Assembly (NCBI GenBank): GCA_001897535.1
Contig: MKTC01000041.1
Coordinates: 1 to 42,252, forward strand
DNA length: 42,252 nt
Source of the DNA: Bacteroidetes bacterium 37-13
Lineage (GTDB): Bacteria; Bacteroidota; Bacteroidia; Chitinophagales; LD1
Direction: 5' to 3'
Shown here: piece after piece, positions 3,022-29,354 of the stretch
Position numbering within the stretch: position 1 is the first letter of the stretch
How the letters are laid out: every line of letters begins with the position of its first letter
Made by a program: the position numbers and the translations under genes
Notes under the pieces: generated by a model
The model's input: only the letters and a program-made list of their open reading frames with translations
The model's database searches: none
What the model was told of the DNA's origin: nothing

Positions 3022-4065
3022 TTAGTGGTCGGTTAATTTCTCTGCACTAAATACTTTCGGATTAGCGTCTCCGGTAACTTTCAGTTTTCCAATTGCGCCT
3101 TTGTTGAAAGCTCTTGAAAGTGAGTGATCCACTAAAACATATTCACCCGGAACATCTACTTTAAATTCAACGATGGCAGCACCACCGGCAGGAATCATAG
3201 TTGTTTGAATGTTATGAGAAATAGTGCTTCCACCTTCTAAGTAAACGTTATCGAAAATTTCACCAATTACATGGAAAGAAGAAGTAAGGTTTGGACCGCC
3301 ATTTCCTACAAATAAACGAACAGTTTCTCCCACTTTTGCTTCAATCATGTTTTTGCCTAAAAGTGAACCTTTTTTACCGTTGAATAAAACGTAATCTGGG
3401 TGTTCTGCAACAGCCTTGTCATTATCAAATTCCAATAAGCCCTTTTTAATTGTAGATGCTTTGGTATAGAAGTCGCCTTGCATAATGTAGTATTCTCTAT
3501 CTACTTTAGGCAATCCACCTTCCGGTTCAACCAAAATTAAGCCATACATACCATTGCCAATGTGCATTGGTACCGGAGGAGCAGCACAGTGGTAAACATA
3601 CAAACCCGGATTTATCGCTTTGAAATTAAATGACGCTTCTTTTCCAGGAGCAGCTGTTGTAGCTGCAGCACCGCCCCCAGGTCCTGTTACAGCGTGTAGA
3701 TCAATATTGTGAGGCAATACGCTATTAGCAGCATTTTTTAAATTCAGTGTTACTTCATCACCTACTCTTAAACGAATAAAACTGCCCGGTACGGTGTTAT
3801 TAAAAGTCCAAAAGGTATATGGAATTGTATCAGCAATTATACCTTCCATTTCGGTTGTTTCTAAATTTACAATAAACTTTTTGGCACCTCTTGTTCCTAC
3901 CGGTGCTGGCACATTGGGTGCGCCTGTAACTTCTGCAACTTCAGGGTTGCCTTCTGCTACAATATCAACAGCGGGTTTAGAGTTGTTGTTTTGGTTTTGG
4001 TTGCATGCCGAAAGCGCAATCATCATTGTAGCCGAAGCGCAAAGCATTAAGTGTTTAGTTTTCAT
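3022..4065 (-). CDS. nirK: Copper-containing nitrite reductase (NO-forming), lipoprotein form
   Basis: This 347-residue protein reduces nitrite to nitric oxide in the envelope. It has a lipoprotein signal (IALSAC, Cys21), an Asn-rich linker and two cupredoxin domains. All expected ligands are visible. Type 1 copper ligands are His119, Cys160, His168 and Met173. Type 2 copper ligands are His124, His159 and His314. The catalytic pair is Asp122 (in PHNIDLH) and His265 (in SSFHVIGE). The lipobox suggests membrane anchoring rather than a free periplasmic trimer. It lies 26 bases after the porin gene and 30 bases before the NirV-like gene. No NO reductase is visible in the window, so NO must be handled by genes elsewhere. 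Confidence 0.96.
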
Positions 4066-5453: not shown

Positions 5454-5530
5454 TGTATGTTCTTTTGTTTTCGTATGGCAAAAGAATATCTTGCATAAAT
5501 CACTTCTAATGATTTAAAATATGCAGTATT

Positions 5531-5544
5531 ATGACTTATGTCAT
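5531..5544. promoter_or_regulatory. Putative FNR/CRP-family operator upstream of the nir operon
   Basis: ATGAC-TTAT-GTCAT has perfect five-base arms around a four-base spacer, the geometry of FNR/DNR-type sites (TTGAT-N4-ATCAA). It lies 78-91 bases upstream of the porin start codon. Nitrite-reduction genes are commonly controlled by CRP/FNR-type nitric oxide or oxygen sensors. The half-site differs from canonical FNR, and no regulator gene is in the window. Confidence 0.45.
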
Positions 5545-5596
5545 TTTTTGTATGGTGTTGCGATCATAAATTAAAAGGTTGCCAATAGTTAATTGC

Positions 5597-8518
5597 TTAT
5601 TGTTTCACCAACTGCCTTCTGTAGCTATTGTTTTTATCGCGCAGCTCAATAATGTATGAACCGGTAGAAAGCTCATCGGTTCTAATTAAAGTATGCTGCA
5701 AACCAATAGAATTACTTTTTAGAATTTGATGTTTTATTCTTCTGCCCGAAGCATCAAAAATATTGCATTCTAATTCGGTTTGTTTGTAATTGTAATACTG
5801 CAATACCAAGCCGTCCACAAAAGGATTTGGATAAATTCCAAGCATGGCAAAATCATCATCATTCGTTTTAATTGAAGAAACGCCAACGTAAATTATTAAT
5901 CGCACAGTATCGCAGTTTGTTGGAGAATTGCTGTTGCATGCAATGGCGTAAACAGTATCAACGCCTGTATAGCCATTTGGTGCGTAGTAATTAAAACAAG
6001 TATCACTTTGCACTTGTATCAGTGCGTTGGTTTTTTTAATAATGTTTACGTTGTTAAAAGGTTGGTTTACTTCATCAAAAGAATAGCAAATAGGAATTGC
6101 TGTTCCGCCACTTCCCGAAAAGGTAAAAGTTTGAGTGCTAAATTCCGGTACTATATTTAATTGAACTTCTATAGTGTCGCAGTTTTGAACATTACAGTTA
6201 TCACAGCCTGTTGCTACAAAAACAGTTTGCCCCGTAGCGCTTGAGGTATAGCTAAAGCAGGTATCATTTATGAAATTTAAGTTGCCAATGTTAGGCTGAA
6301 CAATAACTTGAGAAGAAGCAACGCCTGATTCTAAATCGTTGTATTGAATACAATAAATTATGGTGTCGTTTTGTTTCACCGAAATGGTAGCTACGTCTTT
6401 CACCACAGGCAAACCTACTCTAAAAATATAGAGAACTGTATCGCAAACGGTAGCTTGGCTGTTTTCGCAACCGATTAAATAAACTTCTTCGTAGCCACAG
6501 AAAGTTGAAAGTGGTGTGTAGCTGATACAGCTATCGTTGCTAATTGATACAGACCCGGTATAAGCGCCTTCGTAGGATACTGCAACATTGGTGCTAAACA
6601 AATCGTCAAATCCTTTGCAATTGCTGTAAACCTGCCCGCTGGTAAGTGAAACATTTACAGTGTCGGCTTTTGTAACAGCGGTTACCTGTAATAATACTGG
6701 AATAGTATCACATTCAGTTGGGTTGGCGGTTTGGCAAACTAAAGTAAGCACTGTGTCGTAGCCGCTGTAGTTGTGTATTGGCGTGTATAAAACATCTTTA
6801 TTATTTACTGCCACAGCAGTTCCATAAACAGGGTTTTCAATTATTTGCAAGCCAATTGCAGGACAGGCCGGAGCATTTGGAATTACGGCAATAGAAAGTG
6901 GATTGTTTTGTGCTGTAGTTACATGTATTTCTCTTTCAACCTTTGCAAATGGCACAAAATTATTAGGAAATAGCGATGGAATAGGTGCAGATACCTTTGG
7001 TGCAGCAACTTGTGCGTTTGCTTTGCGCAAAAAACTTTCAGTTCCGTTTACATACCAACTTTCGCCACTTGTTTCGGTGTTTGAAATTTTATCAACCGCC
7101 AAGAAACGATAGTCAGCTTGTACTTTATTCTTCTTCACATCTAAAGTATAATAACCATGATCTACCAAATTAATATATTTCATGTGTGGGTTAAATGATT
7201 TAATCAAATTAACACCAATTGAAAATGGCATACTCTTAGAAGTAACGCTTGTGCCAACAAACTCAACGCCCACAGAGCCTGCTCCAGATGAAGAATTGTA
7301 GTTAGACCCGGGAATATCGTTTGCCCACGAAGTATGAATATCGCCCGTAAGCACAACCACATTTTTAATATTGTTATTCACAATGTGGTTTTCAACTCTT
7401 TTGCGTTCAATTTCGTAACCGTCCCATTGGTCATCGTTTAAAATTGCCCCAAAAGCCTTAAATGGTGCAAACATTACTTGGTTACCAATTACTTTCCATT
7501 TAGCGCTAGTATCGCTAAGTTGTTGCAGCATCCAATTCATTTGGTAAGGTCCAAGTAAATGATGGGTTGTATCATTTGCTTTGCTGCCATCTTGTTCAGA
7601 ACGGTCGTAAATCCTTGAATCCAACATTACCAAGTTCATTAATTTCCCCCATTTAAAATTTCTGAAAATTCTAAAAGTATCTGCAAGATCTGGTCTTCTA
7701 ATCGGTATCCATTCATAATAAGCATTCACACTATTGTTTTTTCTTACATACCACGAGCCTTCGTTTGATTGGTGGTTGTTTGCTCCGCCTTTCCATGAGT
7801 TATCTGCAAATTCGTGATCGTCCCACACGTTTATGAATGGAAACATTTGGTGGCAGCGCTTGAGTTGATTATCTAATTTGTAAAGTGAATGGCGAACGCG
7901 ATAATCGCTTTCCGTAATAATTTCATTTGTTGGTTCATAAGTTCTGCCTGCAATATTTGAAGAATATTGCCCTACACCATATTCGTAAATATAATCACCA
8001 ACATGCACTACTGCGTCCACTTCATTTCTATCGGCAATATTTTGGTACGCATTAAAAAAGCCATGCTCCCAACTGGCACAACTTACTACCGCAAAACGTA
8101 CACTATCATTATCGCTGGTTGGCAAAGGTGCAGTTCTTGTTCTTCCGGTAATAGAGTTTTTTCCATTGTTTTGAAACATATAATAATACCAAGTGTTTGG
8201 TTGTAGCCCACACACATCAACTTTTACGGTATAGTCGTTTTCCGGCAAAGCTTGCGTATAGCCAAAATTTACCACGTTTGTAAAATTAGTATCTGTTGCC
8301 ATTTGCCAATACACATCTAAATTTCCGCTCACGCCCGTATCTGGCGTGCAGCGAGTCCAAATTATAACTTTTTCGTGCGTTGGATCGCCACTTGCCACTC
8401 CGTGATAAAACGGCTCGAAAGCAGGTGTTAAAGTAAGTCTAGCTTGTGAAAAACTTAGTTGAGTAAATGCTGCTACGGAAAATATAATAAATATAGAGAG
8501 GCGAAAAAAACGAAGCAT
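5597..8518 (-). CDS. PhoD-type alkaline phosphatase with Ig-like repeats and T9SS sorting domain
   Basis: This 973-residue protein has a signal peptide ending SFSQA. A PhoD N-terminal domain follows (about residues 35-130, HGVASGDPTHEKVIIWTR). The PhoD metallophosphatase domain spans about 140-490, with motifs VVHVGDYIYEYG, NVWDDHEFADNSW and VLTGDIHTSW, which carry the expected metal-binding Asp, Asn and His residues. From about 540 to 885 come roughly four repeats of about 85 residues with conserved ECDT/NCDT and YTP motifs. The C-terminus is a type A T9SS sorting domain (IYPNPF...GSYIIEL). It probably releases phosphate from phosphodiesters at the cell surface or outside the cell. The minus-strand box TACATTTG at 8541-8548 matches the TAnnTTTG promoter consensus. 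Confidence 0.9.
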   Translation of the reverse strand: MLRFFRLSIFIIFSVAAFTQLSFSQARLTLTPAFEPFYHGVASGDPTHEKVIIWTRCTPDTGVSGNLDVYWQMATDTNFTNVVNFGYTQALPENDYTVKVDVCGLQPNTWYYYMFQNNGKNSITGRTRTAPLPTSDNDSVRFAVVSCASWEHGFFNAYQNIADRNEVDAVVHVGDYIYEYGVGQYSSNIAGRTYEPTNEIITESDYRVRHSLYKLDNQLKRCHQMFPFINVWDDHEFADNSWKGGANNHQSNEGSWYVRKNNSVNAYYEWIPIRRPDLADTFRIFRNFKWGKLMNLVMLDSRIYDRSEQDGSKANDTTHHLLGPYQMNWMLQQLSDTSAKWKVIGNQVMFAPFKAFGAILNDDQWDGYEIERKRVENHIVNNNIKNVVVLTGDIHTSWANDIPGSNYNSSSGAGSVGVEFVGTSVTSKSMPFSIGVNLIKSFNPHMKYINLVDHGYYTLDVKKNKVQADYRFLAVDKISNTETSGESWYVNGTESFLRKANAQVAAPKVSAPIPSLFPNNFVPFAKVEREIHVTTAQNNPLSIAVIPNAPACPAIGLQIIENPVYGTAVAVNNKDVLYTPIHNYSGYDTVLTLVCQTANPTECDTIPVLLQVTAVTKADTVNVSLTSGQVYSNCKGFDDLFSTNVAVSYEGAYTGSVSISNDSCISYTPLSTFCGYEEVYLIGCENSQATVCDTVLYIFRVGLPVVKDVATISVKQNDTIIYCIQYNDLESGVASSQVIVQPNIGNLNFINDTCFSYTSSATGQTVFVATGCDNCNVQNCDTIEVQLNIVPEFSTQTFTFSGSGGTAIPICYSFDEVNQPFNNVNIIKKTNALIQVQSDTCFNYYAPNGYTGVDTVYAIACNSNSPTNCDTVRLIIYVGVSSIKTNDDDFAMLGIYPNPFVDGLVLQYYNYKQTELECNIFDASGRRIKHQILKSNSIGLQHTLIRTDELSTGSYIIELRDKNNSYRRQLVKQ

Positions 8519-24804: not shown

Positions 24805-25910
24805 TTACATAACAAAGTCTGCTAATTCGTAATTGGTGTTTCGCCCTCCCTCTTCTGTTTCTTGTAAAATACCTTTTTTTATTAAGTCTTTTATGTCGCG
24901 CAATGCCGTGTCTGCCGAAACTTTGGTAATCTTCGCCCATTTTGACGATTGCAGTTTTCCGTCAAATCCGTCAAACAACATATTTAAAATAGTGCGTTGG
25001 CGTTCATTGATTGCAGTGTTTTCGTGTAGTTTCCAAAATTCGGCTTTGCGCAAAATACGTTGTGTGGTGGTGTGTTCGGTGGCAAGCATTGCATTTTTCA
25101 AACAATGTAAAAACCATTCGAGCCATTCTGTAATGTTGCCTGTGCTGTGTTGCTCTTTTTGTAATATCTCGTAGTAGCGTTTCCGTTCTACTAAAATTTG
25201 GTTCGACATACTGTAAAAACGTTCGCCACTACTTTCGGCACGTGCAAGTAACATATCGGTTATGGCTCGTCCAATACGCTCGTTTCCGTCATCAAATGGG
25301 TGAATGATGATAAACCAAAAGTGAGCAATAGCGGCCTTTATTACGGGGTCAAGTTGATTGTTATTATTAAACCAGTCTAAAAACTTATCCATTTCAGATT
25401 TTACCAATTTGGGATTTACGGCTTCGTAGTGTGTTTTTTCTTTGCCCATTGCTCCCGAAACTACCTGCATTTTGCCTGTTCGGTACTTGCCAACTTCTAT
25501 GGAGTATGGTCTGCTATAACCTGTGGGAAAAAGTGCTGCGTGCCAACCAAACAACCGTTTTTCGGTTAAAGGTATTGTGTAGCGCTGGGTGGCATCAAGC
25601 ATCATTTCCACCACTCCTTCTATGTGGCGGCTGCTTGGCACAAGACCTGCCGTGTTTATTCCCAAATGTCTGGCTATGGAAGATCGTACTTAGTCGTAAT
25701 TGAGCAATTCCCCCTCTATTTCGCTTGATTTTACTACATCTAAAGTAAGAGCCGTAAGCGTAGCTTCTTCTTTGGCAGAAAACCCTAAAGTGTTCATTTG
25801 TCCGATAATTTTTCCCTGCATTAGTTTTGCTTCACCAAATACTGCATTAATGGCTTTTCGTTCCAAGTGAAATCTGTCCAATTTTTATACTCGTAAATGT
25901 ATTTTGCCAT
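24805..25910 (-). pseudogene. Fic-family gene with a frameshift, a nonsense codon and altered Fic motif
   Basis: Read from ATG 25910 the frame gives MAKYIYEYKNWTDFTWNEK. A missing A in a run at 25855-25858 then shifts frame, and the sequence continues as AINAVFGEAKLMQGKIIGQM. A TAA at 25690-25692 lies between SSEIEGELLNYD and VRSSIARHLGINTAGLVP, where relatives have Gln; one CAA-to-TAA change explains it. The rest is intact: a DUF4172-type N-terminal domain, the Fic core and a C-terminal winged helix (NERQRTILNMLFDG ... SADTALRDIKDLIKKG). The Fic motif reads HPFDDGNERIGR, where the family consensus is HPFxxGNGRxxR. Fic enzymes transfer AMP to proteins. A fragment from 25665 down to 24805 could still be translated, but full activity is unlikely. 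Confidence 0.88.
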
Positions 25911-25922
25911 TGCCCTAAAAAG

Positions 25923-25988
25923 ATTATGCGGTAAATATATGTATTATTTGCCGCATAATTGCGGTGATTGCTCTATTTTTTCACCGCA
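25923..25988. promoter_or_regulatory. Array of four alternating half-sites upstream of the Fic gene
   Basis: Two nested dyads lie 13-78 bases upstream of the Fic start. ATTATGCGGTAAATA (25923-25937) pairs with TATTTGCCGCATAAT (25945-25959), 14 of 15 positions. TGCGGTGA (25960-25967) pairs with TCACCGCA (25981-25988) perfectly. All four share the half-site TGCGGT or its complement in alternating orientation. The Fic protein carries a winged-helix domain, so this may be its autoregulatory operator; that is inference. Confidence 0.55.
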
Positions 25989-26020
25989 TTATATCAACCC
26001 GATGCCGAAAAAGCGCCCTC

Positions 26021-26055
26021 ACTCTCGCGTTTAGCGAAGCGTAACTTGTGAGAGT
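26021..26055 (-). terminator. Hairpin downstream of the 17-residue-repeat gene
   Basis: ACTCTC and GAGAGT arms with a GTT/AAC inner pair enclose a GCGAAGC-rich loop. Read on the minus strand it follows the repeat-protein stop (26076), but a T run comes only after some ten bases. It could be a weak terminator or a small palindromic repeat. Confidence 0.35.
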
Positions 26056-26075
26056 AGATAAGGTAAGTTTGTAAT

Positions 26076-26921
26076 TTACTTATACGCATTATACCCTGCT
26101 TGATTTCCAATCATTACTGAATTATTTGCACTGTATGCCTGATACCCTGCCTGATAACCCGAGAATAACGATGAATAAGCATCCGCTGCCTGATATCCTG
26201 CCTGGTTTCCGATAAAGTTTGAAAATGAGGCATTGGTTGCTTCATATCCTGCCTGATACCCCAGGAAAGAAGAGTTTCTTGCATTGGTTGCATTTTGTCC
26301 TGCTGCACCCCCAAAGAAATTTGACCGAAAAGCAGCTGTTGCGCCATTACCTGCATTTGCACCAATGAACGAAGAACTATACGCACCGCTTGCACCATTA
26401 CCTGCCAAGTCCCCAAAGAACACAGAGTTGGCTGCATCCGTTGCCTGATACCCTGCATGATAACCGAAGAAGTTTGAGTTATTTGCATTGGTTGCGTAGC
26501 ACCCTGCTTCTTGACCAAAGAAATTCGAGTTATTTGCATTGGTTGCATTACATCCGGCAGACTGACCGAAGAAGTTTGAGTTATTTGCATTGGTTGCATT
26601 TTCCCCTGCACCGGTACCGATAAAATTCGAATAACCGGCATTACTTGCTCCATTTCCTGCACCGATACCAATGAATACAGTGTTATCGGTAGATCCGCCA
26701 TTTTGTCCGGTATTGGTTCCTACCCATGTGTGATCGGTTTGTGTGATTACATACAGATTTACGATACAGTCGGTGTCTCCTGGTGCGCATGATGGATCGT
26801 TGCTTTGACCAGGAATGTACCCTCCTGGTGGAGCTGAGGCGAATACAAAAAATCCGTACCCTACTATTGAAAGTTGTGTAAGTGTTATCTTTAAAAAAAT
26901 CTTGTGAGAAAAGTGCTTCAT
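26076..26921 (-). CDS. Secreted protein of twelve exact 17-residue repeats
   Basis: This 281-residue protein has a hydrophobic N-terminal signal (about residues 8-30, ending VFASA) and a short linker with two cysteines. Then come twelve repeats without a gap. The Gly of the F-[FI]-G motif falls at residues 85, 102, 119, 136, 153, 170, 187, 204, 221, 238, 255 and 272. The consensus is N-A-T-N-A-N-N-S-N-F-F-G-Y-Q-A-G-Y. The spacing suggests one turn of a beta-solenoid per repeat, like the shorter repeats of YadA heads and the NTFxGxxAG repeats of Bacteroidota tail-fibre-like proteins. There is no sorting tail or chaperone domain, so the protein may be cut short. Function is unknown; surface adhesion is a guess. 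Confidence 0.75.
   Translation of the reverse strand: MKHFSHKIFLKITLTQLSIVGYGFFVFASAPPGGYIPGQSNDPSCAPGDTDCIVNLYVITQTDHTWVGTNTGQNGGSTDNTVFIGIGAGNGASNAGYSNFIGTGAGENATNANNSNFFGQSAGCNATNANNSNFFGQEAGCYATNANNSNFFGYHAGYQATDAANSVFFGDLAGNGASGAYSSSFIGANAGNGATAAFRSNFFGGAAGQNATNARNSSFLGYQAGYEATNASFSNFIGNQAGYQAADAYSSLFSGYQAGYQAYSANNSVMIGNQAGYNAYK
26079..26684 (-). repeat. Twelve tandem 51-base coding repeats
   Basis: The DNA under the repeat protein has an exact 51-base period, with near-identical stretches between units around 26460-26620. The identity keeps a second minus-strand frame open for almost the whole array. Such arrays can gain or lose units by slippage. Confidence 0.85.
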
Positions 26922-26988
26922 AATAGGTTATGTGATTATTATAATGTAAGTGTTTATTCTTAGCAATACTATGTGGATAATCCCCATT

Positions 26989-27015
26989 AAAAAATCCCGA
27001 ACGTTTGTTCGGGAT
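26989..27015 (-). terminator. Terminator of the collagen-like gene
   Basis: ATCCCGAAC and GTTCGGGAT form a perfect nine-base stem with a four-base loop, followed on the minus strand by a T run. It lies six bases after the stop at 27021. Confidence 0.9.
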
Positions 27016-27020
27016 GGTAT

Positions 27021-27989
27021 TTAATTGTGTCGGTACCAAGTAATTGATGCTCTTCGCATGTATGCACGGGCGTGCCCAGGTGCAACAGCAATGCATATAC
27101 GAAATTGAGGAGCGAATGTATACGGCATGGGGACCTCTAATGAATACGCAATAGGGTGCCATCCTGGTTGCGCAACAGAAACATCGGCACCACCGGAAAA
27201 TGGTAACAATACATTGCCATCATCAAAAGTAAATCGTACGCCATCGTAATCGTATTTCTGTAATCCTGGATTTAATGGGTCGGCCACAATAATGGTGTCG
27301 GACATCACCTCGCAAGAAAACCATACGGTGTACTTTCCACCTCCTGATCCTGGTGCTGATATTACTGGTGCAAAAGTGTTACTTGATGAAGTAACTGGTC
27401 CGGTAGAAGCATAACCAATATTGGTTACTAAACCGGTGGGTCCTGTTGGGCCAGTTGGTCCTGCACCGGTTGGTCCTTGTGGTCCAGCAGGTCCTTGTGG
27501 TCCTGTGGCGCCAGTAGCTCCGTTAGCTTCAGGTAATCCTGCACCGGTTGGTCCAATAGGGCCTTGTGGTCCAGTAGGGCCGGTTACACCGTTGGTTCCG
27601 TTAGTTCCTGCAGGTCCTTGTGGTCCTGTGGCACCAGTAGCACCGTTAGCACCAGGTAATCCTGCACCGGTTGGTCCTTGTGGTCCTGTTGGTCCGGTAG
27701 GGCCTTGTGGTCCTACACTAGAATTACATAAATTCACCAACTATTAGTAGGTGTTCTAAAAAAGAAATAACACTGACTATCGGTATCAAATACTAATAAC
27801 GCATCTGCTGGATTTACAATAGATAATCTTTCTACTGTAGTCATTCTTGGTAAAAGTACTCCCATTTTTTTTGGAATACATTTCTACCAATGCAGAGGGA
27901 TCAGGGTTTTGAGTTCCGATACCAATATTGTTTTGCGCTGATAACCCTAAGGAAAAGGACAAAAGTAGGATTAGTATAGGTTTGTGCAT
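27021..27989 (-). pseudogene. Collagen-like secreted protein gene with two frameshifts
   Basis: From ATG 27989 the frame reads a signal peptide (LILLLSFSLGLSAQ) and NNIGIGTQNPDPSALVEMYSK. An extra A in an eight-A run (27865-27872) breaks it. The next frame gives MGVLLPRMTTVERLSIV, NPADALLVFDTDSQCYFFF and RTPTNSW, the standard continuation in Bacteroidota tail-fibre-like surface proteins. A missing G at 27737-27738 breaks it again. The third frame gives VNLCNSSVG, about 30 Gly-x-y triplets rich in GPTGPQ, and a C-terminal domain of about 130 residues ending SITWYRHN. The parts are in the right order, so this is one gene with two single-base indels. Decay, phase variation through the A run, or sequence error are all possible. 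Confidence 0.85.
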
Positions 27990-28364: not shown

Positions 28365-29354
28365 TTATTTCTTTTTTGTTTTCTTATCTATTGCTTTCAG
28401 ATTTTCTAAATAGTTTTTTTCGGCTTCGCTCAATGTTTTTTGCTGATACTTTTTTTACTCTGTAGTGGCTTTCTCTACTGCTTTTTCGCGGCTTACCGTT
28501 CCTGCACCTTGTAACAATTTTTCTCCACTCATTGTTAAAATTCTGTCTAAATGTTCAGCCCAGTTTTTCATTGTCATTGCTTTTTCACGTTCGGCTTGTC
28601 GTTCAGCAAAATCCAAATATCCCGAAACAATTTGCCCCAAAGCACGAAGTTCTTTTTCATCTAAATAATTCTTCGCAACGGTTACATCTTTTAAATACGG
28701 ACGGTTTCCCGAAAAAGTCATTAAACCCATAAATTCTTTTTCTGCATCGGCACGGATAAAAATGACTTCTGCTGCTGTTTGTCCATGAACAGCAAAATGA
28801 ATTTTGTTTTGTACCTTCTTAAAAAACTCAACGGAAACATCTGCTTTCGGGTCGTAATCAATGCTTGTACCATAAATATCCAAAACCTGACGATAAAACA
28901 CTTTTTCGGAAGTACGAATGTCTCGTATGCGTTGCAACAGTTCTTTCCAATAACCGCCACCGCCAAGATTTCTTAGGCGTTCATCATCCATTGTAAAGCC
29001 CTTACGAATATATTCATTCAGGCGTTTTGTAGCCCAAATTCTGAATTGTGTAGCCACTTTTGAGTTTACACGATAACCAAGCGAAATAATCATATCAAGG
29101 TTATAGTGCTTTGTATCGTATTTTTTGCCGTCTGCGGCAGTTCGTAAGAATTTCTTACTAACTGAATTTTCCTGTAATTCTCCTTCTGAAAAAATGTTTT
29201 TTATGTGTTGTGTAATTCCCGGACGTTCCACCCCAAAAAGCAATGCCAACTGGTCTTGTGTGAGCCAAACATCCTGCTCGTCCAAACGAACGTCCACCGA
29301 TATTTTTTCGTCTTCGGTTTTAAATAGGATAAATTCAGAATTTGTATTTCCCAC
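28365..29354 (-). pseudogene. RhuM-family gene with a premature stop near its 3' end
   Basis: The frame from GTG 29354 gives 299 residues typical of the 'virulence RhuM' family: VDVRLDEQDVWLTQDQLALLFGVERPGITQHI, YDTKHYNLDMIISLGYRVNS, ATKRLNEYIRKGFTMDD and SGEKLLQGAGTVS. A TAA at 28455-28457 then interrupts KATTE. The same frame goes on for 29 more codons (KKYQQKTLSEAEKNYLENLK) to a second TAA. Relatives have Tyr at the stop, so one TAT/TAC-to-TAA change explains it. Loss of the last 30 residues may or may not matter. RhuM proteins are often found in restriction-modification or mobile loci; their activity is unclear. An in-frame stop just upstream supports the GTG start. Confidence 0.8.

Follow-up and report, generated by a model that had tools for sequence, protein, structure and literature searches.

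A predicted beta-solenoid of twelve 17-residue repeats behind a Patescibacteria-type leader in a Bacteroidota contig

Among surface proteins built of short repeated turns, the YadA-type heads are left-handed parallel beta-rolls whose layers comprise 14 residues, or mostly 15 in UspA1, according to the available part of their description (PMC9543794). The MAT fibres of Bdellovibrio, as far as the portion of PMC10769870 used here goes, are cell-encoded, phage-fibre-like adhesins that combine a signal peptide and a conserved beta-rich domain of ~130 aa at the N-terminus with a varied shaft, and the same portion gives 13 of 21 MATs as ending in the S74 domain. The protein considered in the present study is encoded in contig MKTC01000041.1 (assembly GCA_001897535.1) of Bacteroidetes bacterium 37-13, which was analyzed over its whole 42,252 nucleotides and is referred to below as the window. 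Its open reading frame, 281 aa plus stop on the reverse strand (26076..26921), begins with ATG and has one match in its own genome.

Residues 77-280 of this protein (26082..26693, reverse strand) consist of twelve gapless 17-residue units with the unit consensus NAxxSNFxGxxAGxxAT and are predicted by AlphaFold2 to form a beta-solenoid. Splitting the chain into units bore out the first-pass annotation, which had described twelve gapless repeats with a Gly falling every 17 residues from 85 to 272 without exception: this Gly (unit position 9) is present in 12/12 units, as are a second Gly four residues on (unit position 13, aa 89-276) and the Ala residues at unit positions 12 and 16, and Ala at position 2, Ser at position 5 and Phe at position 7 are each found in 11 of the twelve, position 7 being Met once. 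Across the repeats, residue identity at lag 17 reached 0.58, and 5000 composition shuffles gave no value above 0.235 for any lag of 5-59. In the DNA, Tandem Repeats Finder reported a 51-base period over part of the array only (26450-26599, 2.9 copies). In 55 of the 59 unit pairs for which both values were above zero (66 pairs in all), dN was lower than dS, which shows that the units differ under constraint and have thus been under selection in the past; present use is not proven thereby, and this constraint may be older than the transfer proposed below. The third-position G+C content of the gene (0.349) is inside the range of the host genes, so that composition carries no signal of foreign origin.

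The repeat protein had no match in Pfam, PHROGs, NCBIfam or the PDB sequences. In particular, neither the S74 domain (PF13884, Pfam) nor the TIGR04183 T9SS sorting domain (NCBIfam) was found in it, in agreement with the earlier statement that the protein lacks any known anchor, sorting tail or chaperone domain. Neither the protein nor its leader is described in the titles and abstract openings listed by the literature searches, a coverage that leaves out most subscription journals.

AlphaFold2, run with alignment A3 (P0001 and 27 viral arrays), gave pLDDT values of 93-98 over about aa 81-280 and placed one three-residue strand in each 17-residue turn (65-67, 82-84 ... 269-271; thirteen strands). 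Alignment A3 leaves out two misaligned leader rows of A2 and one L016 array, and both A2 and A3 are without the L008 and L028 arrays, which are copies of those of L007 and L006. Residues 1-62 were mostly below pLDDT 60 in the array model, and a second model, of the leader (aa 1-66), had a mean pLDDT of 66 with a helix at 4-28 of low to medium confidence. The regular beta-solenoid proposed from the sequence is therefore confidently predicted, with one strand per turn, and it stood after both outcomes named beforehand as refuting it, a disordered chain and homologues of irregular spacing, had been examined. Foldseek found no solved structure in the PDB at E <= 0.001 (best E 0.12). Among viral models, the best match was A0A6J5N938 (BFVD; E 4.7e-9, TMq 0.40, rmsd 9.8 over 271 columns), annotated as a YadA-like head domain of an uncultured tailed phage, and the next was H9NCD4 (E 1e-4, rmsd 1.2 over 107 columns). 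VIA-align 2, applied to the monomer model, listed beta-helix enzymes, tailspikes and adhesins at Z 11-16, which are not taken as kin because, as the tool itself warns, repeats reach such Z values by common arrangement; YadA heads are absent from this list, an absence that says nothing by itself.

The scan of viral contigs yielded 44 stretches, 36 of which were confirmed as repeat relatives (36 loci, including the near-duplicates L007/L008, L006/L028, L025/L026, L031/L034 and L035/L037, which enter all counts given for these loci), with 41-62% identity in the best segment. The ORFs that contain the arrays are 298-2326 aa long, measured from stop to stop and in some cases cut off at a contig end; in them, 712 spacings between unit motifs are exactly 17 and the next most frequent are 4 (13 cases) and 34 (9 cases); the longest unbroken array has 46 units. 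Since these loci hold the strict register over as many as 46 consecutive units, it is not peculiar to the window protein, and the idea that strict 17-residue spacing marks this protein out had to be abandoned, the more so as 21 further loci from Bacteroidota and Patescibacteria also show 17 as the most frequent spacing in 16 cases (tied in 2, absent or not the most frequent in 3). The striking register is thus ordinary for this repeat class; what was not to be expected is a leader of Patescibacteria type in a member of the Bacteroidota.

The PHROGs scan of neighbours of the viral loci covered ten proteins from seven loci. The neighbours in L007 are baseplate-wedge proteins (phrog_219, 3.4e-42; phrog_261, 7.7e-27), that in L017 is a tail sheath protein (phrog_23, 3.2e-75), that in L033 has a weak tail match (3e-4), those in L016 and L012 are DNA polymerase and SbcC-like, and four further neighbours had no PHROGs match, which places the array among tail genes in two loci and leaves the other neighbourhoods indecisive. 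A relative is also found in an isolate, gp257 of Sphingomonas phage PAU, with 47.8% identity over 40% of the query. Among the relatives of the host, 10 of 59 genomes besides its own match the repeat protein at E <= 0.001 with 28-36% identity, in open frames of 134-1776 aa, many of which have a different (TTGxxN) unit style; neither of the two genomes of the same genus has a match, i.e., the distribution is sporadic. In the Patescibacteria group, 10 of 286 genomes match, G061 included. At E <= 0.1, 27 of the 28 sequences of A3 are without a Pfam match and one has a weak match to DUF6808, and PHROGs gave two single weak matches for the repeat sequences of A3. A stretch like GSNNIIIGTNISLPxxTxNSINIGGVLFGTGTYS recurs after 17-residue arrays (L005, L009, L011, L015, L018, L027, L029 and others), and a loose pattern for this cap is present in 21 of the 36 viral ORFs.

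Three things had been overlooked in the first-pass annotation: the type of the N-terminal module, the absence of a C-terminal continuation and the broken neighbourhood. The N-terminus begins with a signal-peptide-like stretch ending in ...VFASA (aa 1-30, 26832..26921, reverse strand), recognized by eye and alignable with Patescibacteria proteins; judged by its look, the protein is probably exported. It is followed by a Patescibacteria-type module with two cysteines, PPGGYIPGQSNDPSCAPGDTDCIV (aa 31-54, 26760..26831, reverse strand), identified by pattern scan, alignment and profiles. The exact DNA pattern for DPxCxPGDTDC was found in two stretches among 84,980 species genomes, against about 0.2 expected by our own arithmetic with equal base use, and both belong to CPR/Patescibacteria, namely, a Candidatus Gracilibacteria MAG (L049) and a Parcubacteria-group MAG (L050). 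This pattern was read by the standard code and therefore misses Gracilibacteria copies with TGA for Gly; a second leader copy on L049 is visible only under code 25. No viral contig contained the exact pattern. The L049 and L050 proteins both start with a leader and PPxGGYxPGxTLDPxCAPGDTDCxV, and nine aligned leaders, the window one included, share 15 invariant columns. A leader of roughly the form YxPGxTLxPxCxPxDxxC is common to the Patescibacteria proteins of L049, L050 and L069-L081.

A profile built from the eight Patescibacteria rows matched the window ORF at E 4.4e-21; among the window ORFs of at least 30 aa, no second one came up at E <= 1. Profile A1, in which the window sequence is included, found the leader in 8 of 379 Patescibacteria-group genomes at E <= 0.001, seven of which had supplied no row to it (E 3e-10 to 1e-4), so that the leader is rare even within this group; a single Gracilibacteria genome (G060) carries ten such leaders. 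Profile A4, built without the window sequence, matched 9 of the 379 genomes, but six of these had supplied its rows, which makes the A1 count the fairer one; the other three are G354, G206 and G093, the last with a marginal and partial match (9.8e-4). In Bacteroidota, A1 matched 7 of 395 genomes at E <= 0.01, namely, the own genome, by construction, and six partially matching ones (0.001-0.009), among them G452, whose match is without the first cysteine. At E <= 0.001, A4 matched two of the 395, the own genome (2.8e-13) and G608 (7e-4), and the G608 match contains two stops; by this profile, a leader of convincing appearance is confined to the own genome among the 395. The passengers behind the leader vary between Patescibacteria proteins and comprise solenoids and S74 fibres as well as, by eye only, pectate-lyase-like and GDSL-like domains, a diversity which suggests that the leader may serve export or display.

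The window protein consists of the leader, a 22-residue linker and the twelve units, after which the chain stops five residues past the last AG pair; no cap-like sequence was seen by eye in the three frames after the stop at 26076. In 34 of the 36 viral ORFs, at least 60 residues follow the longest array, and the remaining two have 56 (L023) and 18 (L028), the L028 tail being of unrelated-looking sequence. As the viral kin continue past the array and the window chain ends there, the window copy is C-terminally truncated relative to known kin. The closest architecture is that of the L050 protein at 5513-7708 (731 aa; leader BLASTP 6e-17), in which some 270 residues separate the leader from a few ATNA-type units such as GYAAGSDATNASDSVFIGSGAGSSAASARNSIFIGANAG, with two strict 17-residue spacings, a cap-like stretch (by eye) and then S74, a domain found in both L050 proteins. 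It is the one other protein found in which the leader and ATNA-type units occur together.

The gene lies in a damaged accessory stretch. On its downstream side is a broken Fic-family gene (24805..25912, reverse strand; stop and frame change by eye, end set by plasmid alignment), in a region (24814-25989) with 77.7% DNA identity to the Haliscomenobacter hydrossis plasmid pHALHY03, a likeness that suggests plasmid-borne arrival of this pseudogene. An inverted repeat (25923-25959; 15-base arms, 93% complementary, 7-base loop) lies in the gap that separates the Fic pseudogene from the repeat gene. Upstream of the ATG, there is a promoter-like TTGCTA-17-TATAAT (26938..26966, reverse strand), a weak candidate, as the region holds eight such sites against 12.7 expected in shuffles. 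A terminator-like hairpin (26994..27015, unstranded), taken as the probable right limit of the unit, separates the repeat gene from a broken collagen-like gene (27021..27989, reverse strand; frame disrupted at about 27740-27880), whose start, NNIGIGTQNPDPSALVEM, appears Bacteroidota-type by eye and whose collagen-like (GPTGP) part matches PHROGs tail-fibre families. Beyond it lies a RhuM-family accessory gene (28455..29354, reverse strand; PF13310, E 7.7e-103), and host genes are found farther out, with T9SS sorting domains in two window proteins that mark the host as Bacteroidota. By eye and by the proteins scanned, the neighbours in the window are bacterial housekeeping and accessory genes, and the repeat gene is not among virion genes. 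The window also carries a copper-containing nitrite reductase gene (TIGR02376) at 3022-4065. Because the Haliscomenobacter-like DNA ends at 25989 and the hairpin lies at 26994, the foreign-looking unit is about 1 kb at most. Gene order differs from that of the window at the GH3 locus of G002 (same genus), G013 and G017 (same family) and at the dCMP-deaminase locus of G002 and G001 (same genus), so that an empty site or an insertion boundary could not be drawn from the genomes compared.

The explanation that we consider probable, with some reserve, is that a Patescibacteria-type gene for an exported fibre or adhesin, truncated in the present copy, arrived in this Bacteroidota genome by horizontal transfer and now probably represents a relic or a minimal soluble rod. 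The repeat part could also bring to mind a phage tail-fibre fragment left by a prophage that later gained an export leader: the arrays nearest by identity are in viral contigs, with phage PAU gp257 as the isolate example, and the adjoining broken gene has the tail-fibre-like collagen part described above. Such an origin is unlikely, as the exact leader pattern occurs in no viral contig, no other phage gene was seen by eye among window ORFs of 110 aa or more (some of them covered by the scans), and the stretch 25880-27020 had no DNA match among 50,697 phage records.

That the unit is an artefact of assembly or binning, i.e., Patescibacteria DNA misjoined into a Bacteroidota contig, would fit with a genome in 43 contigs and a contig of only 42,252 bases, and since cultivated Patescibacteria live attached to other microbes, as stated in the accessible portions of PMC12206443 and PMC11665869, mixed DNA is plausible. 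We regard it as very unlikely: with Bacteroidota-like sequence on both sides of so short a unit, a chimera would require two false joins 1 kb apart, and the genome is rated 100% complete and 0.41% contaminated. It is just as improbable, in our estimate, that the protein is a native Bacteroidota surface protein with a convergent cysteine motif, or that the Bacteroidota were the donor in a reverse transfer. The 17-spaced, tail-fibre-like proteins in the other Bacteroidota relatives speak for a native origin, but their low identity and frequent TTGxxN style, the 15 invariant columns of the nine-row leader alignment and the restriction of a convincing leader to this one genome among the 395 speak against it.

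Under the favored explanation, the protein would be exported by the Sec route, with the leader cut after ...ASA, and its solenoid of twelve turns would be preceded by a short module in which Cys45 and Cys52 probably form a pair. Each 17-residue unit is confidently predicted to add one turn, and at about 4.8 A per turn the rod would be about 6 nm long. In the relatives, the rod belongs to a longer protein that continues past the array, in the Patescibacteria relative as far as an S74 chaperone. The gene would have entered by horizontal transfer, into a stretch of accessory genes of which those next to it are already broken. What it now encodes would be no more than a small rod, either soluble or loosely attached, and may be a decaying relic; among the forms that the window copy could take, these two, relic and small soluble rod, are the most likely. 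Transfer from Patescibacteria and loss of function are what we infer here. Against this reading weigh the whole-protein scan of 84,980 species genomes, in which none of 73 stretches was confirmed as a close homologue (0/73), the scarcity of the leader even in the Patescibacteria group, its joint occurrence with ATNA-type units in just the one L050 protein, the base composition inside the host range, the lack of a Foldseek match in the PDB and the differing gene order around the flanks. A more far-reaching version, which we hold to be doubtful, takes the leader for a general tag with which Patescibacteria display very different passengers on their surface; an episymbiont would have handed a fibre gene with this tag to a member of the Bacteroidota, perhaps its host, where the bare rod would now serve as a surface decoy or spacer.

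The combination of a coiled body as in phage tail fibres with a front end of ultrasmall bacteria suggests a shortened surface fibre that has passed from one bacterial lineage to a very remote one. An exchange of genes between larger bacteria and ultrasmall episymbionts is difficult to trace, and its consequences would be felt in surface proteins. Moreover, the leader module offers a handle for listing candidate exported proteins in a mostly uncultivated phylum, and the 17-residue solenoid common to phages, Patescibacteria and Bacteroidota is a very regular natural rod.

Compared with the known systems, the window array has the same register and the same consensus as the 17-residue arrays of phage fibres; the latter continue past the array, whereas the window protein has a signal-peptide-like leader in front of the array and nothing after it. 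With the Patescibacteria leader protein of L050 it shares the leader, the module and some ATNA-type units, and it differs from the 731-aa L050 chain, with its long spacer, few strict 17-mers and C-terminal S74 chaperone. The YadA-type heads and the window array are both made of short repeated turns with a fixed Gly, but in the available part of the YadA description the layers are of 14-15 residues with Gly at position 8, so that the 17-residue unit is indeed longer, as had been claimed, and the window array departs from this type in layer length; moreover, the C-terminal membrane anchor of YadA-type proteins has no counterpart in the window protein, whose chain ends at the repeat and has no Pfam or NCBIfam match. 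The MAT fibres, likened to the window protein as cell-encoded proteins of phage-fibre type with a signal peptide, a conserved N-terminal part and a varied shaft in the portion of their published description cited above, differ from it where they carry the S74 domain, which the window protein is without, and for the putative full-length form of this protein they are the best functional parallel.
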